A stretch of 35,283 nucleotides of DNA, from contig JAGHSB010000124.1 of NCBI GenBank assembly GCA_018066075.1, positions 1-35,283 on the forward strand, in the 5' to 3' direction. The stretch is from Candidatus Treponema scatequi (GTDB taxonomy: Bacteria > Spirochaetota > Spirochaetia > Treponematales > Treponemataceae). The position numbers were made by a program, and so were the translations under genes. The notes under the pieces were generated by a model. It did not search any database and had not been told where the DNA came from. It saw nothing but the letters and a program-made list of their open reading frames with translations. This document shows, in pieces, positions 1,810 through 7,260 of the stretch (positions within the stretch are counted from its first letter, which is position 1; every line of letters begins with the position of its first letter).

Positions 1810-2523
1810 TTATTCTTCAAATAAAATCTGTGTATTCAATTTGTCGGTGCTGATTGTAACAAGATGCTGAGGGGCAAGGTTAGTGTAGCTTGCAGTGATT
1901 TCGCATTCTGTTGTGATCGGCGCTTTGTATGTTATTCGAAGTGAACGGAAATTCTTTTCTGCAATTTCTTGAGGCAGTGCTTCGAATGCGTAATCGATGT
2001 ATGTCAGATTGTGAACATGATCATTAAAATCAAAATCAGTTTTTCTTGTTTTAAATTTTATTTCTGATGTTATATTTTCTGCAAGTGGAATTTTATCAAG
2101 CTTCTTTTCTTCAAATAGAGATTTTTCTTCAGGCTGATATTTTTCAATGAGTGACGGTTCAATTTTACATGGACGACCTGTCTGTAAATCGAGAATTACC
2201 CAGCGTGTTGTTGCCTGGCCGATTAATTTATTATCTGCATAGATTTCAAAATCTCGTGCGACGTTAAAAATCTGATTAACAGTCTGGCTCCAGGTGATAA
2301 CTTTGATTTCTTGTCCGTAGCTTGCAAATTCCATCATCTTAACTTTCCAGTCAGTAAGCACCCAGACCTTCTGACTTTTTACAGCATCAAGAACTCCGTC
2401 ACCTGCGCGGTCAGAATGTGCGTTGCCTGCGTTTTCTAAAAGCTTGACGATAGTTGAAAGCTTGAGTGTTTTGTCTTTGTTGTAATCTTCGAGTAAAGGT
2501 TTGTAAGAAAATTCTACGAACAT
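1810..2523 (-). CDS. Acyl-ACP thioesterase
   Basis: A 237-residue protein of the bacterial FatA/FatB-like acyl-ACP thioesterase family. Members hydrolyse acyl-ACP to release free fatty acids in the cytoplasm. The family consists of two hotdog folds. The second shows the characteristic active-site segment DFNDHVHNLTYIDYA near residue 165, with the Asp/Asn/His residues of the D-x-N-x-H-V-x-N-x-x-Y pattern. The first hotdog contains GNAHSDRAG and the ITWSQTVNQ strand. Length is typical for bacterial members. The start has a strong AAGGAG site. It is transcribed alone, divergently from the YhhN gene. Chain-length preference cannot be read from the sequence. Confidence 0.87.
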   Translation of the reverse strand: MFVEFSYKPLLEDYNKDKTLKLSTIVKLLENAGNAHSDRAGDGVLDAVKSQKVWVLTDWKVKMMEFASYGQEIKVITWSQTVNQIFNVARDFEIYADNKLIGQATTRWVILDLQTGRPCKIEPSLIEKYQPEEKSLFEEKKLDKIPLAENITSEIKFKTRKTDFDFNDHVHNLTYIDYAFEALPQEIAEKNFRSLRITYKAPITTECEITASYTNLAPQHLVTISTDKLNTQILFEE

Positions 2524-2654
2524 TAAAAGGCTCCTTTTTACGAGAAACGCGTTTTATTATTGAAAGTATCTTGTTAAGATTGATTTAATATTTATTGTGA
2601 CATTATATTAAATAATGTCATTTTGAACAAGGGCAGAAATCGGGAATAGAGATA

Positions 2655-2682
2655 TTGAAGATTATTAAAACTGTGCTAAAAT
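2655..2682 (+). promoter_or_regulatory. Promoter of the YhhN gene, leaderless type
   Basis: TTGAAG, 16 nt, then TAAAAT, with an extended -10 TG at 2674-2675. The -10 ends only 6 nt before the ATG at 2689 and there is no Shine-Dalgarno, so transcription should begin at or next to the start codon. Confidence 0.6.
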
Positions 2683-2688
2683 TAGAAT

Positions 2689-3393
2689 ATGGTATTATCA
2701 ATAGTTTTAGGAATCTGCTGTTATATTTTTCTCATCACCAATCATTTTTTAAGATTGACTGGAAATGTTAATCTTGCGGTTGTTTTTAAGGGATTTGCAA
2801 GTCTATGTTTTCTTTCGCTTGCAATTTATTCTTTTGTGAAATGCAAAAAGAAGAGCGATGCATTTCGAAGACTTTCTGTTTTTGTACTAACTGGAATTTC
2901 TTTAGCATTTATAGCAGACATAGTTTTAGAAATTAATTTTGTTTTTGGATTTGTTCTTTTTGTTTTGGCGCAGTTCTTTTATTTTTTTGCATTCATTGGT
3001 TATGGAAAGTTAAAGCCGAGATTTTTTATTATTTCTGCCGCAATTATTATTACACTTATAATTTTTGATGTTGCTTCTCCATTTTTCAATTTTGAAAAAG
3101 AAGGAGAAAGTTTATTTTTGCCTTCAGTAGTGTATATGATTTTTTTAACGATTGTTGTTGTTCAGGGATTTGAAAGTTTTGGATATAAGGACATACGTGC
3201 AAAATTGATGCCGGTTGGAACTTTGCTTTTTGCATTGTCTGATCTGCTTTTGGAAACATATGTTTTTCCGTCTGGAATTATTCCCAAAAGTCTTGCAGAA
3301 GTAATTTTTATCTTCAGTAATTTTATGTATTATACAGGGCAGCTTTTTGTGGCTTTCTCTTTGAGCAAAGATTATCTGGTTGAAAAGAAATAG
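2689..3393 (+). CDS. YhhN/TMEM86-family membrane protein (lysoplasmalogenase-like)
   Basis: A 234-residue protein made almost entirely of hydrophobic helices, about eight. The helix order and conserved polar positions fit the YhhN family: an early lysine in a helix (VVFKGFASLCF), an aspartate in LAFIADIVLEI, and a late ALSDLLLE. Eukaryotic relatives (TMEM86) hydrolyse lysoplasmalogen vinyl ethers; bacterial members are mostly uncharacterised, so the substrate is inferred. It is monocistronic, ends at a strong shared terminator and lies divergent to the thioesterase. Both neighbours touch lipid metabolism, which may be coincidence. Confidence 0.7.
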   Translation: MVLSIVLGICCYIFLITNHFLRLTGNVNLAVVFKGFASLCFLSLAIYSFVKCKKKSDAFRRLSVFVLTGISLAFIADIVLEINFVFGFVLFVLAQFFYFFAFIGYGKLKPRFFIISAAIIITLIIFDVASPFFNFEKEGESLFLPSVVYMIFLTIVVVQGFESFGYKDIRAKLMPVGTLLFALSDLLLETYVFPSGIIPKSLAEVIFIFSNFMYYTGQLFVAFSLSKDYLVEKK

Positions 3394-5501: not shown

Positions 5502-5780
5502 ATGGCAATGTTACAAGTTAGAGATATGGATGATAGATTATATGATAGATTGAAATTTTCTGCAAAGCAAGATAATCGCTCAATCAGTCAACAGGTAATT
5601 ACAATTTTACAAACTTATTTCACTTCTGTACCTGCTAAAAATAAAAATGCAACTGAAGAATTTTTAAAATTGGCAGGTTCGTGGGAAGATTCTCGATCTA
5701 CTAAAGAAATCATAAATGATATTTATGAATCAAGAGAAAATTCTTCAAGATTTGAGGTAGCAGATGGCTTATTTGATTGA
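5502..5780 (+). CDS. FitA-like ribbon-helix-helix antitoxin
   Basis: A 92-residue protein. Its first ~45 residues match the FitA/Arc-type DNA-binding antitoxin pattern: a short strand (MLQVRDMDD), then helices with RLKFSAKQDNRSISQQV. The remaining part is the expected toxin-neutralising tail. It overlaps the downstream PIN toxin gene by 17 bp, the usual translational coupling of type II toxin-antitoxin pairs, and would repress its own promoter at the palindrome noted upstream. The start is supported by GAGG about 8 nt before ATG. Base composition matches its neighbours. Confidence 0.82.
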   Translation: MAMLQVRDMDDRLYDRLKFSAKQDNRSISQQVITILQTYFTSVPAKNKNATEEFLKLAGSWEDSRSTKEIINDIYESRENSSRFEVADGLFD

Positions 5781-6162
5781 TACTGATACAATTGTTTTTG
5801 CTCTTCGTAATGAAAAATCGGTTTTAGAAAAATTTAATGAAAATAAGAATATTCCAATTTCAATTTCTATGATTACTTACGCGGAGCTTGTTTTTGGAGC
5901 AAAACGTTCTCAGAATGAACAGAAAAATATGATAAAAGTAAATCATATTCGAGAAATCTATCCTATCGAGGAATTGAATGAAGGCGTTATGGAAGTATTT
6001 GCTGATATAAAAGCAAAAATGCTTTCAAAAGGAATAAGAATTGAGGATATGGATTTGCTTATTGCTTCTACAGCAATTTATAATGATTTGACTTTAGTAA
6101 CAAATAATACAAAACATTTTGAAAATGTTCCTGATCTTAAAATTGAGAATTGGTTGAAATAG
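5764..6162 (+). CDS. vapC: VapC/FitB-type PIN-domain ribonuclease toxin
   Basis: A 132-residue PIN-domain protein. VapC-type toxins are Mg-dependent endoribonucleases that cut tRNA or rRNA and are held inactive by the partner antitoxin. Acidic active-site residues are visible: D6 in LIDTDTIVF, E41 in ITYAELVFG and D97 in MDLLIAS. The VTNNTKHF end motif is also present. Length is normal and the frame is intact. It is the second gene of a two-gene operon immediately upstream of the flaB control region. The RNA target cannot be predicted. Confidence 0.87.
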   Translation: MAYLIDTDTIVFALRNEKSVLEKFNENKNIPISISMITYAELVFGAKRSQNEQKNMIKVNHIREIYPIEELNEGVMEVFADIKAKMLSKGIRIEDMDLLIASTAIYNDLTLVTNNTKHFENVPDLKIENWLK

Positions 6163-6169
6163 TTTTGTA

Positions 6170-6202
6170 AAATTCCATCTAAATTCCCCTTAAATTCCCC
6201 CT
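6170..6202 (+). repeat. Three tandem 11-bp AAATTCC repeats upstream of flaB
   Basis: AAATTCCATCT, AAATTCCCCTT and AAATTCCCCCT follow each other without gaps. The 11-bp period is about one helical turn and is in phase with the A-tracts that follow. Confidence 0.85.
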
Positions 6203-6241
6203 AAAAAAAACTCAAAAAAATCCACAAAAACGTAAAAAAAA
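6203..6241. promoter_or_regulatory. Phased A-tracts (candidate curved DNA / UP element) before flaB
   Basis: Four A-tracts (6203-6210, 6214-6220, 6226-6230, 6234-6241) have centres about 10-11 bp apart, the spacing that produces intrinsic bending. They end directly at the sigma-28 -35 element, where alpha-subunit contacts or bending could raise flagellin transcription. The effect on expression is inferred. Confidence 0.65.
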
Positions 6242-6244
6242 CGC

Positions 6245-6271
6245 TAAACACTTTTTTTATATCTCCGATAG
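6245..6271 (+). promoter_or_regulatory. Sigma-28 (FliA) promoter of flaB
   Basis: TAAA, 15 nt, TCCGATAG is a near-perfect match to the sigma-28 consensus TAAA-N15-GCCGATAA. It lies about 130 nt upstream of the flagellin start, with the predicted transcription start near 6279. Confidence 0.9.
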
Positions 6272-6278
6272 TTAAAGT

Positions 6279-6399
6279 AACGGGTGGTTAAACCCCACAT
6301 GGATGTCGGTCCTTGCGAGGTTTGATAATTACTACCAAATCTTACAAGGGACAGGCTGAAAATGTTCAGTTTGTTTAACAGATTTATAGGAGATACACT
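6279..6399 (+). promoter_or_regulatory. Long structured 5' leader of flaB with CsrA-like sites
   Basis: The ~120-nt leader can fold into three hairpins: GTGG/CCAC (6284-6298), a long wobble-rich stem with a one-base bulge (6309-6352), and CTGAA-AATG-TTCAG (6356-6369). Between the first two lies ACATGGATGT (6297-6306), close to the CsrA consensus core ACARGGAUGU. A second partial site TACAAGG is at 6343-6349, and the Shine-Dalgarno itself (AGGAG, 6388-6392) contains GGA. CsrA/FliW control of flagellin translation is known in Bacillus, Campylobacter and Borrelia; here it is inferred. Confidence 0.6.
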
Positions 6400-7260
6400 A
6401 TGGTTATTAATCACAACATGAGCGCTATGTTTGCTCAGCGTTCACAGGGTCTCACAGACCTTAACAATCAGAAAAACATGGAAAAACTCTCATCTGGTAT
6501 GAGAATTAACCGTGCTGGTGATGATGCTTCTGGACTTGCTGTTTCAGAAAAAATGCGTGCTCAGATTCGCGGTTTGAATCAGGCTTCAACAAACGCAGAA
6601 AACGGCATCTCATTCATTCAGACAACAGAAGGTTATTTGCAGGAAACATCTGACATCGTTCAGCGTATTCGTGAATTGGCTGTTCAGTCATCGAACGGTA
6701 TCTACTCAGATGAAGACCGTATGCAGATCCAGGTTGAAGTTTCATCTTTGATCGATGAAGTTGACCGCATTGCTTCTGCTGCTCAGTTCAACGGTATGAA
6801 TATGCTCACAGGACGCTTCGCTCGCCCTACAGGTGAAAACACTGTTACAGGTTCTATGTGGTTCCACATTGGTGCTAACATGGACCAGAGAACACAGGTT
6901 TACATTGGAACAATGTCAGCTACAGCTCTCGGACTTAAGAACCTCGGAGACGAAACAAAAATGTCTCTCGCAGCTCCAGATGACGCTAACCGCGCAATCG
7001 GAACTTTGGACGAAGCTCTCAAAAAGATCAACAAACAGCGTGCAGACCTTGGTGCTTACCAGAACCGTCTCGAAAAGACAGTTGTTGGTTTGGACATCGG
7101 TGCTGAAAACCTCCAGGCTTCAGAATCACGCATCCGCGATACAGACATGGCATCAGAAATGGTAGACTTCACAAAGAACCAGGTTCTCAGCCAGGCTGGT
7201 ACAGCTATGATCGCTCAGGCAAACCAGACTTCACAGAACGTTCTTTCACTCCTCCGCTAG
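6400..7260 (+). CDS. flaB: Flagellin FlaB, core filament protein of periplasmic flagella
   Basis: A 286-residue flagellin with the conserved spirochaete FlaB N-terminus ([14 protein letters not shown]) and [20 protein letters not shown] segment, plus the conserved C-terminus ending NVLSLLR. Only a short variable middle is present, as is normal for FlaB. In spirochaetes FlaB proteins form the core of the periplasmic filament and are exported by the flagellar type III system. AGGAG lies 7 nt before ATG. The gene is preceded by a sigma-28 promoter with a long leader, followed by a strong terminator, and so forms a single-gene unit. Spirochaetes usually carry several flaB paralogues; which one this is cannot be told here. 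Confidence 0.97.

Follow-up and report, generated by a model that had tools for sequence, protein, structure and literature searches.

A conserved, helically phased array of A/T tracts upstream of the Treponema flaB promoter, a candidate extended UP-type element for sigma28 RNA polymerase

The flagellin gene flaB of Candidatus Treponema scatequi is preceded by a row of short A/T tracts at close to helical spacing that ends just short of the -35 element of a sigma28-type promoter, and the flaB promoters of the genus keep the phase of this row. Sequence comparison shows the array to be real and conserved, and it very probably functions as a promoter booster. Our preferred reading, which we regard as probable though well short of certain, is that it acts as an extended UP-type element for sigma28 RNA polymerase, on which the C-terminal domains of the alpha subunits (alphaCTDs) would dock and the upstream DNA would wrap. 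The stretch analysed, hereafter the window, is the 35,283 nucleotides of contig JAGHSB010000124.1 (positions 1 to 35,283, forward strand).

Results

The flaB promoter and its upstream array

The flaB promoter lies 155 bp upstream of the gene and has a spacer of 16 bp. Its sequence, TAAA-N16-CCGATAG, fits the sigma28 (FliA) pattern of TAAA, a spacer of 15-16 bp and (G)CCGATAA, the -10 element departing from the consensus at the last base and at the preceding G. FliA itself is encoded in the genome (TIGR02479 match above cut-off, 291.8 bits). The features of the region are as follows, with tract centres counted from the T of the -35.

5502-6162, + strand: genes for a FitA-like antitoxin and a PIN-domain toxin, directly upstream of the array
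6169-6196, + strand: distal part of the array, AAAATT / AAATT / AAATT (the AAATTCC repeats), centres -73.5, -62 and -51
6203-6210, + strand: A-tract 4, A8, centre -38.5; genus peak -37, about -72 from the start; 46/84 promoters, p = 7e-10
6214-6221, + strand: A-tract 3, A7T, centre -27.5; genus peak -26.5, about -61.5 from the start; 68/84, p = 9e-29
6226-6230, + strand: A-tract 2, A5, centre -17; genus peak -16, about -51 from the start; matches the distal UP subsite; 79/84
6234-6241, + strand: A-tract 1, A8, centre -7.5; genus peak -6, about -41 from the start; matches the proximal UP subsite; 84/84
6245-6248, + strand: sigma28-type -35 element, TAAA
6252-6258, + strand: spacer T7, a conserved spacer tract about 1.5 turns from tract 1, outside the phased series
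6265-6271, + strand: sigma28-type -10 element, CCGATAG (E. coli consensus GCCGATAA)
6280, + strand: transcription start as predicted from the mapped start of the homologous T. denticola promoter PflaB2, 35 bp past the T of the -35
6282-6295, + strand: predicted hairpin at the 5' end of the flaB mRNA, GGGT-GGTTAA-ACCC
6400-7260, + strand: flaB, flagellin core protein, 286 aa (Flagellin_N, Flagellin_C)

The array occupies 6169-6241 and comprises seven tracts centred at 6171.5, 6183, 6194, 6206.5, 6217.5, 6228 and 6237.5, with successive steps of 11.5, 11, 12.5, 11, 10.5 and 9.5 bp (mean 11.0 bp). An earlier note on this DNA described three 11-bp AAATTCC repeats that run into four A-tracts, and this is what the sequence holds, the heptamers starting at 6170, 6181 and 6192, exactly 11 bp apart. 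The note also had seven phased tracts ending at the -35 and extended the series to a T7 in the sigma28 spacer. There are seven tracts, the last of which ends 3 bp before TAAA, and the T7 does lie in the spacer at 6252-6258, but its centre is 17.5 bp from that of the last A-tract, about half a turn out of phase, and we rejected it as a member of the series. A spacer tract is conserved throughout the genus at +7 to +12 from the -35 (occupancy 0.89 at +8 to +10), on the face opposite to the upstream array and about 1.5 turns away. Across the whole window there are 35 copies of the heptamer AAATTCC compared with 11.5 expected, a count reached in 0 of 100 shuffles, and thus the word is not specific to the flaB array.

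Chance and predicted curvature in the single sequence

Considered alone, the seven-tract chain is moderately improbable, which is suggestive. Of 1000 dinucleotide shuffles of the whole window, 27 held a chain of at least seven tracts spaced 9-12.5 bp, as did 6 of 5000 shuffles confined to the local 100 bp, and the flaB chain is the longest in the window. Curvature was computed with three dinucleotide wedge models, and each placed the maximum 70-bp bend of the whole window at the flaB array (114, 89 and 93 degrees), as expected from the strong curvature that had been predicted. Relative to 400 kb of one related genome, used as background for both bends and chains, the window values fell within the top 0.007-0.08%. 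The array therefore shows both marks of curved DNA, tracts at the helical period (10.5 bp in the genus; mean 11.0 bp in the window) and predicted curvature well over background in all three models. It is the comparison across species, however, that settles the reality of the array.

Tract phase is conserved across the genus

The comparison drew on 80 loci from named genomes, some 30 loci in 98 genomes of the same genus and some 80 more that belong to other genera in the family. The -35 and the CGA of the -10 served as the sole anchors, and the tracts played no part in the alignment. Promoters at least 75% identical over 50 bp were removed to leave 84-85 genus promoters, depending on the upstream length required. 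Tract occupancy in the genus promoters rose to five peaks, at -6, -16, -26.5, -37 and -47.5 from the T of the -35, where tracts were present in 84, 79, 68, 46 and 36 of 84 promoters, respectively. Between successive peaks the counts were 4, 8, 16 and 12 of 84 against a background (-105 to -62) of about 19.6. This depletion was significant in the first two gaps (p = 7e-6 and 0.002), not significant in the third (p = 0.44) and marginal in the fourth (0.053). No tract excess was seen at -58 in the 84 promoters.

The best period was 10.5 bp, with an amplitude of 0.184 compared with maxima of 0.106 upon jittering (0/2000 as high) and 0.051 upon shuffling, and the periodicity persisted when the set was reduced to 42 promoters less than 58% identical (0/3000 jitters as high). 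As a dense row of tracts could mimic periodicity by packing, we also permuted the tracts and spacers within each promoter with the first tract held fixed. This null was as high as observed in 0 of 2000 trials for the intervals -55 to -3, -55 to -12 and -55 to -22, and in 1 of 2000 for -55 to -32. The lengths of tracts and spacers compensate one another (rho -0.33; -0.13 in background). The earlier expectation that phase would be kept in homologous Treponema flaB promoters was therefore borne out, though the sequence is not kept: A-runs, T-runs and AnTn tracts are all common at each position and so interchangeable, which indicates that helical phase and tract character are conserved rather than sequence. 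TpA made up 0.095 of the steps in A/T runs of the array as opposed to 0.18-0.20 in controls, and the genus median bend in the three models was 75, 60 and 72 degrees, compared with 46, 38 and 46 for shuffles of the same DNA and 43, 38 and 43 for intergenic controls.

The second flaB promoter of the window's genome (locus L002) has eight tracts from -6 to -80 with a mean spacing of 10.6 bp, in a sequence that differs from that of the window array and combines A and T runs in another way. Among the other genera of the family, conservation is seen for the first two tracts, and the phase of tracts beyond -23 was not significant by the Rayleigh test. As only the two nearest tracts are clearly conserved outside the genus, the distal part is not universal.

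Set against the genus grid, tracts 1-4 of the window (6203-6241) lie within 1.5 bp, whereas the AAATTCC centres at -51, -62 and -73.5 are 3.5-5 bp away from the grid positions -47.5, -58 and -68.5. With this offset, and with no conservation seen at -58, the inclusion of the repeats in one functional series, as in the earlier note, is not supported. They are phased with one another, but may lie outside genus-wide selection, and this part of the window array may have arisen by chance. A close relative, locus L006, has tracts at -50.5 and -61, near the AAATTCC positions, and those of the paralogous L002 promoter, at -49, -59.5, -70 and -80, match them more loosely.

Tracts at other promoters

Other sigma28-type sites preceding genes in five genus genomes mostly had one tract near the -35, or none; a few (L230, L236) had more. 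Among FlgM promoters, nine of which were usable owing to a strict start-codon pattern, the -6 tract was present in 8/9, the -16 tract in 4/9 and the -26.5 tract in 4/9. The rRNA promoters inspected (SSU loci, too few for statistics) were without the array. All three of these specificity controls are small samples. The RNase P RNA promoter was dropped as a control because the gene closely trails an upstream gene in the genus and the position of its promoter is uncertain. In a related genome, a ten-tract chain at helical spacing was found in intergenic DNA that is not beside a flagellin gene (L314, G043:C1:323055-323157); it adjoins a 143-aa gene of uncharacterised role.

Register against the UP element and known systems

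To place the array relative to RNA polymerase, we set the T of the -35 at -35 from the start by the geometry of a T. denticola-like locus (L167), the start of T. denticola PflaB2 having been mapped according to PMC9481697. Counted from that start the genus peaks fall at about -41, -51, -61.5, -72 and -82.5. UP subsites are described in PMC4496709 as centred at -42 and -52, with upstream DNA wrapping from about -60 to -80. The two nearest genus peaks, at -41 and -51, thus sit at the subsites directly upstream of the -35, and the tracts, judged by sequence, have the narrow minor groove and scarcity of TpA steps expected of such an element. The alphaCTD encoded in the genome carries by sequence match the conserved DNA-binding motif (VRSSNCLK...NFGKKSLTEIK, aligned to solved alphaCTDs), which corresponds to the region of R265, N268, G296, K298 and S299 in E. 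coli. The array is not confined to two subsites downstream of -60, as phase selection is seen at about -61.5, -72 and -82.5, and for this reason we class it as an extended UP variant rather than a plain UP element.

The array therefore resembles the UP elements of E. coli rrn P1 and others in having tracts immediately before the -35 that share a single helical face, the first two of them on the two alphaCTD subsites (about -42 and -52), and in the conserved motif of the genome's alphaCTD. It differs in having five tracts (locally seven or eight) rather than two subsites, in extending to about -82 or further, and in serving a sigma28 rather than a sigma70 promoter, with a putative dependence on alphaCTD. 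Another parallel is the UP element of the B. subtilis flagellin promoter hag, which uses sigmaD (Fredrick et al. 1995 and Caramori and Galizzi 1998, cited in PMC4495994). That too is an AT-rich upstream element at a flagellin promoter read by an orthologous flagellar sigma factor, although it belongs to another phylum and the likeness is drawn from the description in PMC4495994. Promoter stimulation through alpha by A-tracts that lie upstream of the -35 was described by Aiyar, Gourse and Ross (1998, cited in PMC4081817), and the array may act likewise; according to PMC4081817 no effect was shown beyond -60, whereas phase selection in Treponema continues beyond that point. The H. pylori sabA promoter, as described in PMC4081817, likewise has several A-boxes in phase, for which roles as alphaCTD sites and as a bend have been proposed, but these boxes lie beyond a variable T-tract that serves as a length rheostat, and no variable repeat tract separates the flaB array from its -35. 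A related promoter with a mapped start, T. denticola PflaB2, is also a sigma28 flagellin promoter, and it outperformed two other flagellar promoters when tested with lacZ in E. coli (PMC9481697); T. denticola-like promoters differ from the array in keeping mainly the proximal tracts. PMC9481697 gave no match for A-tract or AT-rich, and among the titles and abstracts listed there was no earlier report of A-tracts, curvature or UP elements at flagellin promoters of Treponema or other spirochaetes. With hag, one flagellin promoter is already known to have a UP element, and the new part is a long array conserved in phase only.

A proposed mechanism and its alternatives

In the proposed mechanism, A/T runs free of TpA, and hence with a narrow minor groove, recur once per helical turn along a single face of the DNA, starting at about -41 and reaching about -82. 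Tracts 1 and 2 (-41 and -51) would be the docking sites of two alphaCTDs, and the next two or three tracts on the same face would bend the DNA upstream and so wrap it back on the polymerase; alternatively or in addition, the distal tracts may provide further minor-groove contacts. The net effect would be to speed the binding and opening of the promoter, for a gene whose product the cell needs in many copies. The earlier suggestion of a bend or multi-copy UP element agrees with this geometry and with the position of the two nearest tracts on the alphaCTD subsites, but is not supported for the spacer T7, which is out of phase, or for the AAATTCC repeats, which are off the grid. As there are only two alphaCTDs per polymerase, tracts 3-5 require the extra assumption of wrapping. 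We also count against the extended UP reading that a transcriptome study of B. subtilis saw no drop in hag, fliD or motA upon removal of alphaCTD (PMC4495994), together with the -60 limit stated in PMC4081817 and the clear conservation of only the two nearest tracts outside the genus.

That the array acts mainly by intrinsic curvature, as a fixed bend by which upstream DNA is presented to RNA polymerase or wrapped on it while alphaCTD makes little specific contact, we consider unlikely. The predicted bend is the maximum of the window and lies far above shuffles genus-wide, TpA is avoided in the tracts and phase is selected to about -82, further than two alphaCTDs require. Yet conservation peaks exactly at the two UP subsites and declines with distance, other genera retain just the two tracts at those subsites, and the review PMC4496709 notes that not every UP element is curved. 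Slightly less likely is that the phased narrow minor grooves are read by a nucleoid or regulatory protein bound there, either one of the HU/IHF type or a flagellar activator. The presence of the full array at flaB and its absence from the other sigma28 promoters examined would suit gene-specific control, and phased A/T tracts are good substrates for such proteins. No motif was seen besides the A/T tracts, however, tract type is free, and the register is fixed relative to the -35, its first tract at the proximal UP position, all of which fit such a protein poorly.

A feature common to every strong or sigma28 spirochaete promoter, not flagellin-specific, is very improbable: the -6 tract of FlgM promoters would be expected from it, but the -16 and -26.5 tracts are found at fewer than half of those promoters, most other gene-preceding sigma28-like sites have a single nearby tract or none and, small as these samples are, the rRNA promoters inspected have no array. 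Least credible is the absence of any function, with the periodicity due to chance or packing in AT-rich intergenic DNA. Shuffles of the window do yield seven-tract chains, and a related genome has comparable ones at other places, but neither accounts for the cross-species registration to the promoter, seen in 0 of 2000-3000 trials of the jitter and packing nulls, or for the depletion of tracts between the nearest phases. For the proximal four to five tracts, these several nulls refute an origin by chance or packing.

The array hints at how spirochaetes may drive flagellin synthesis. Earlier arguments on whether A-tracts beyond about -60 matter at all, and on whether upstream A-tracts work by bending or through contact with alphaCTD, drew mostly on a handful of model promoters. 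By keeping phase alone, dozens of diverged natural promoters amount to an evolutionary experiment that separates sequence from geometry, and the natural variants with two to eight rungs provide a ready set for the study of dose, phase and alphaCTD dependence on a sigma28 promoter. A bolder generalization, which we offer as doubtful speculation, is that spirochaete flagellin promoters might form a distinct upstream class, a helical ladder of five to eight minor-groove sites reaching beyond -80 and selected for phase alone, that wraps DNA on sigma28 polymerase in the absence of an activator and sets promoter strength by rung number.

Neighboring genes and flaB leaders

The stop codon of the toxin gene upstream of the array is just 6 bp from the first tract. 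At L006 there is no trace of toxin-antitoxin genes in the examined DNA just upstream of the array, and hence these genes may be a recent insertion in the window. The array was set aside as a terminator of the toxin-antitoxin genes, as A-runs rather than T-runs follow the stop codon.

An Rfam search of the array and flaB region of the window found no known RNA. The predicted flaB mRNA opens almost exactly with the short hairpin GGGU-GGUUAA-ACCC (6282-6295, + strand), and a 5'-terminal hairpin is predicted at most flaB leaders of the genus that follow a 16-bp spacer, L057 and L119 being among those in which the stem has changed yet still pairs. Such a hairpin could protect the 5' end of the flaB mRNA. 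The second flaB leader of the same genome (L002, about 1275-1421) belongs to a separate class with homologues among L055-L084 and no match to an Rfam family. It has three hairpins, two with varied, covarying stems, and two-sided changes in 15 of 25 pairs overall. One loop holds an invariant AGCCTTGT and another AAGGA, and the Shine-Dalgarno GGA lies within an ATTCC..GGAAT hairpin with an almost invariant stem. The arrangement resembles CsrA sites. A third conserved type of flaB leader, apparently structured, is built around GATCGGCAGGGATGCCGCGA...GAAAATCGCCAAAGGAGTAGC in L062, L069, L072 and L075.
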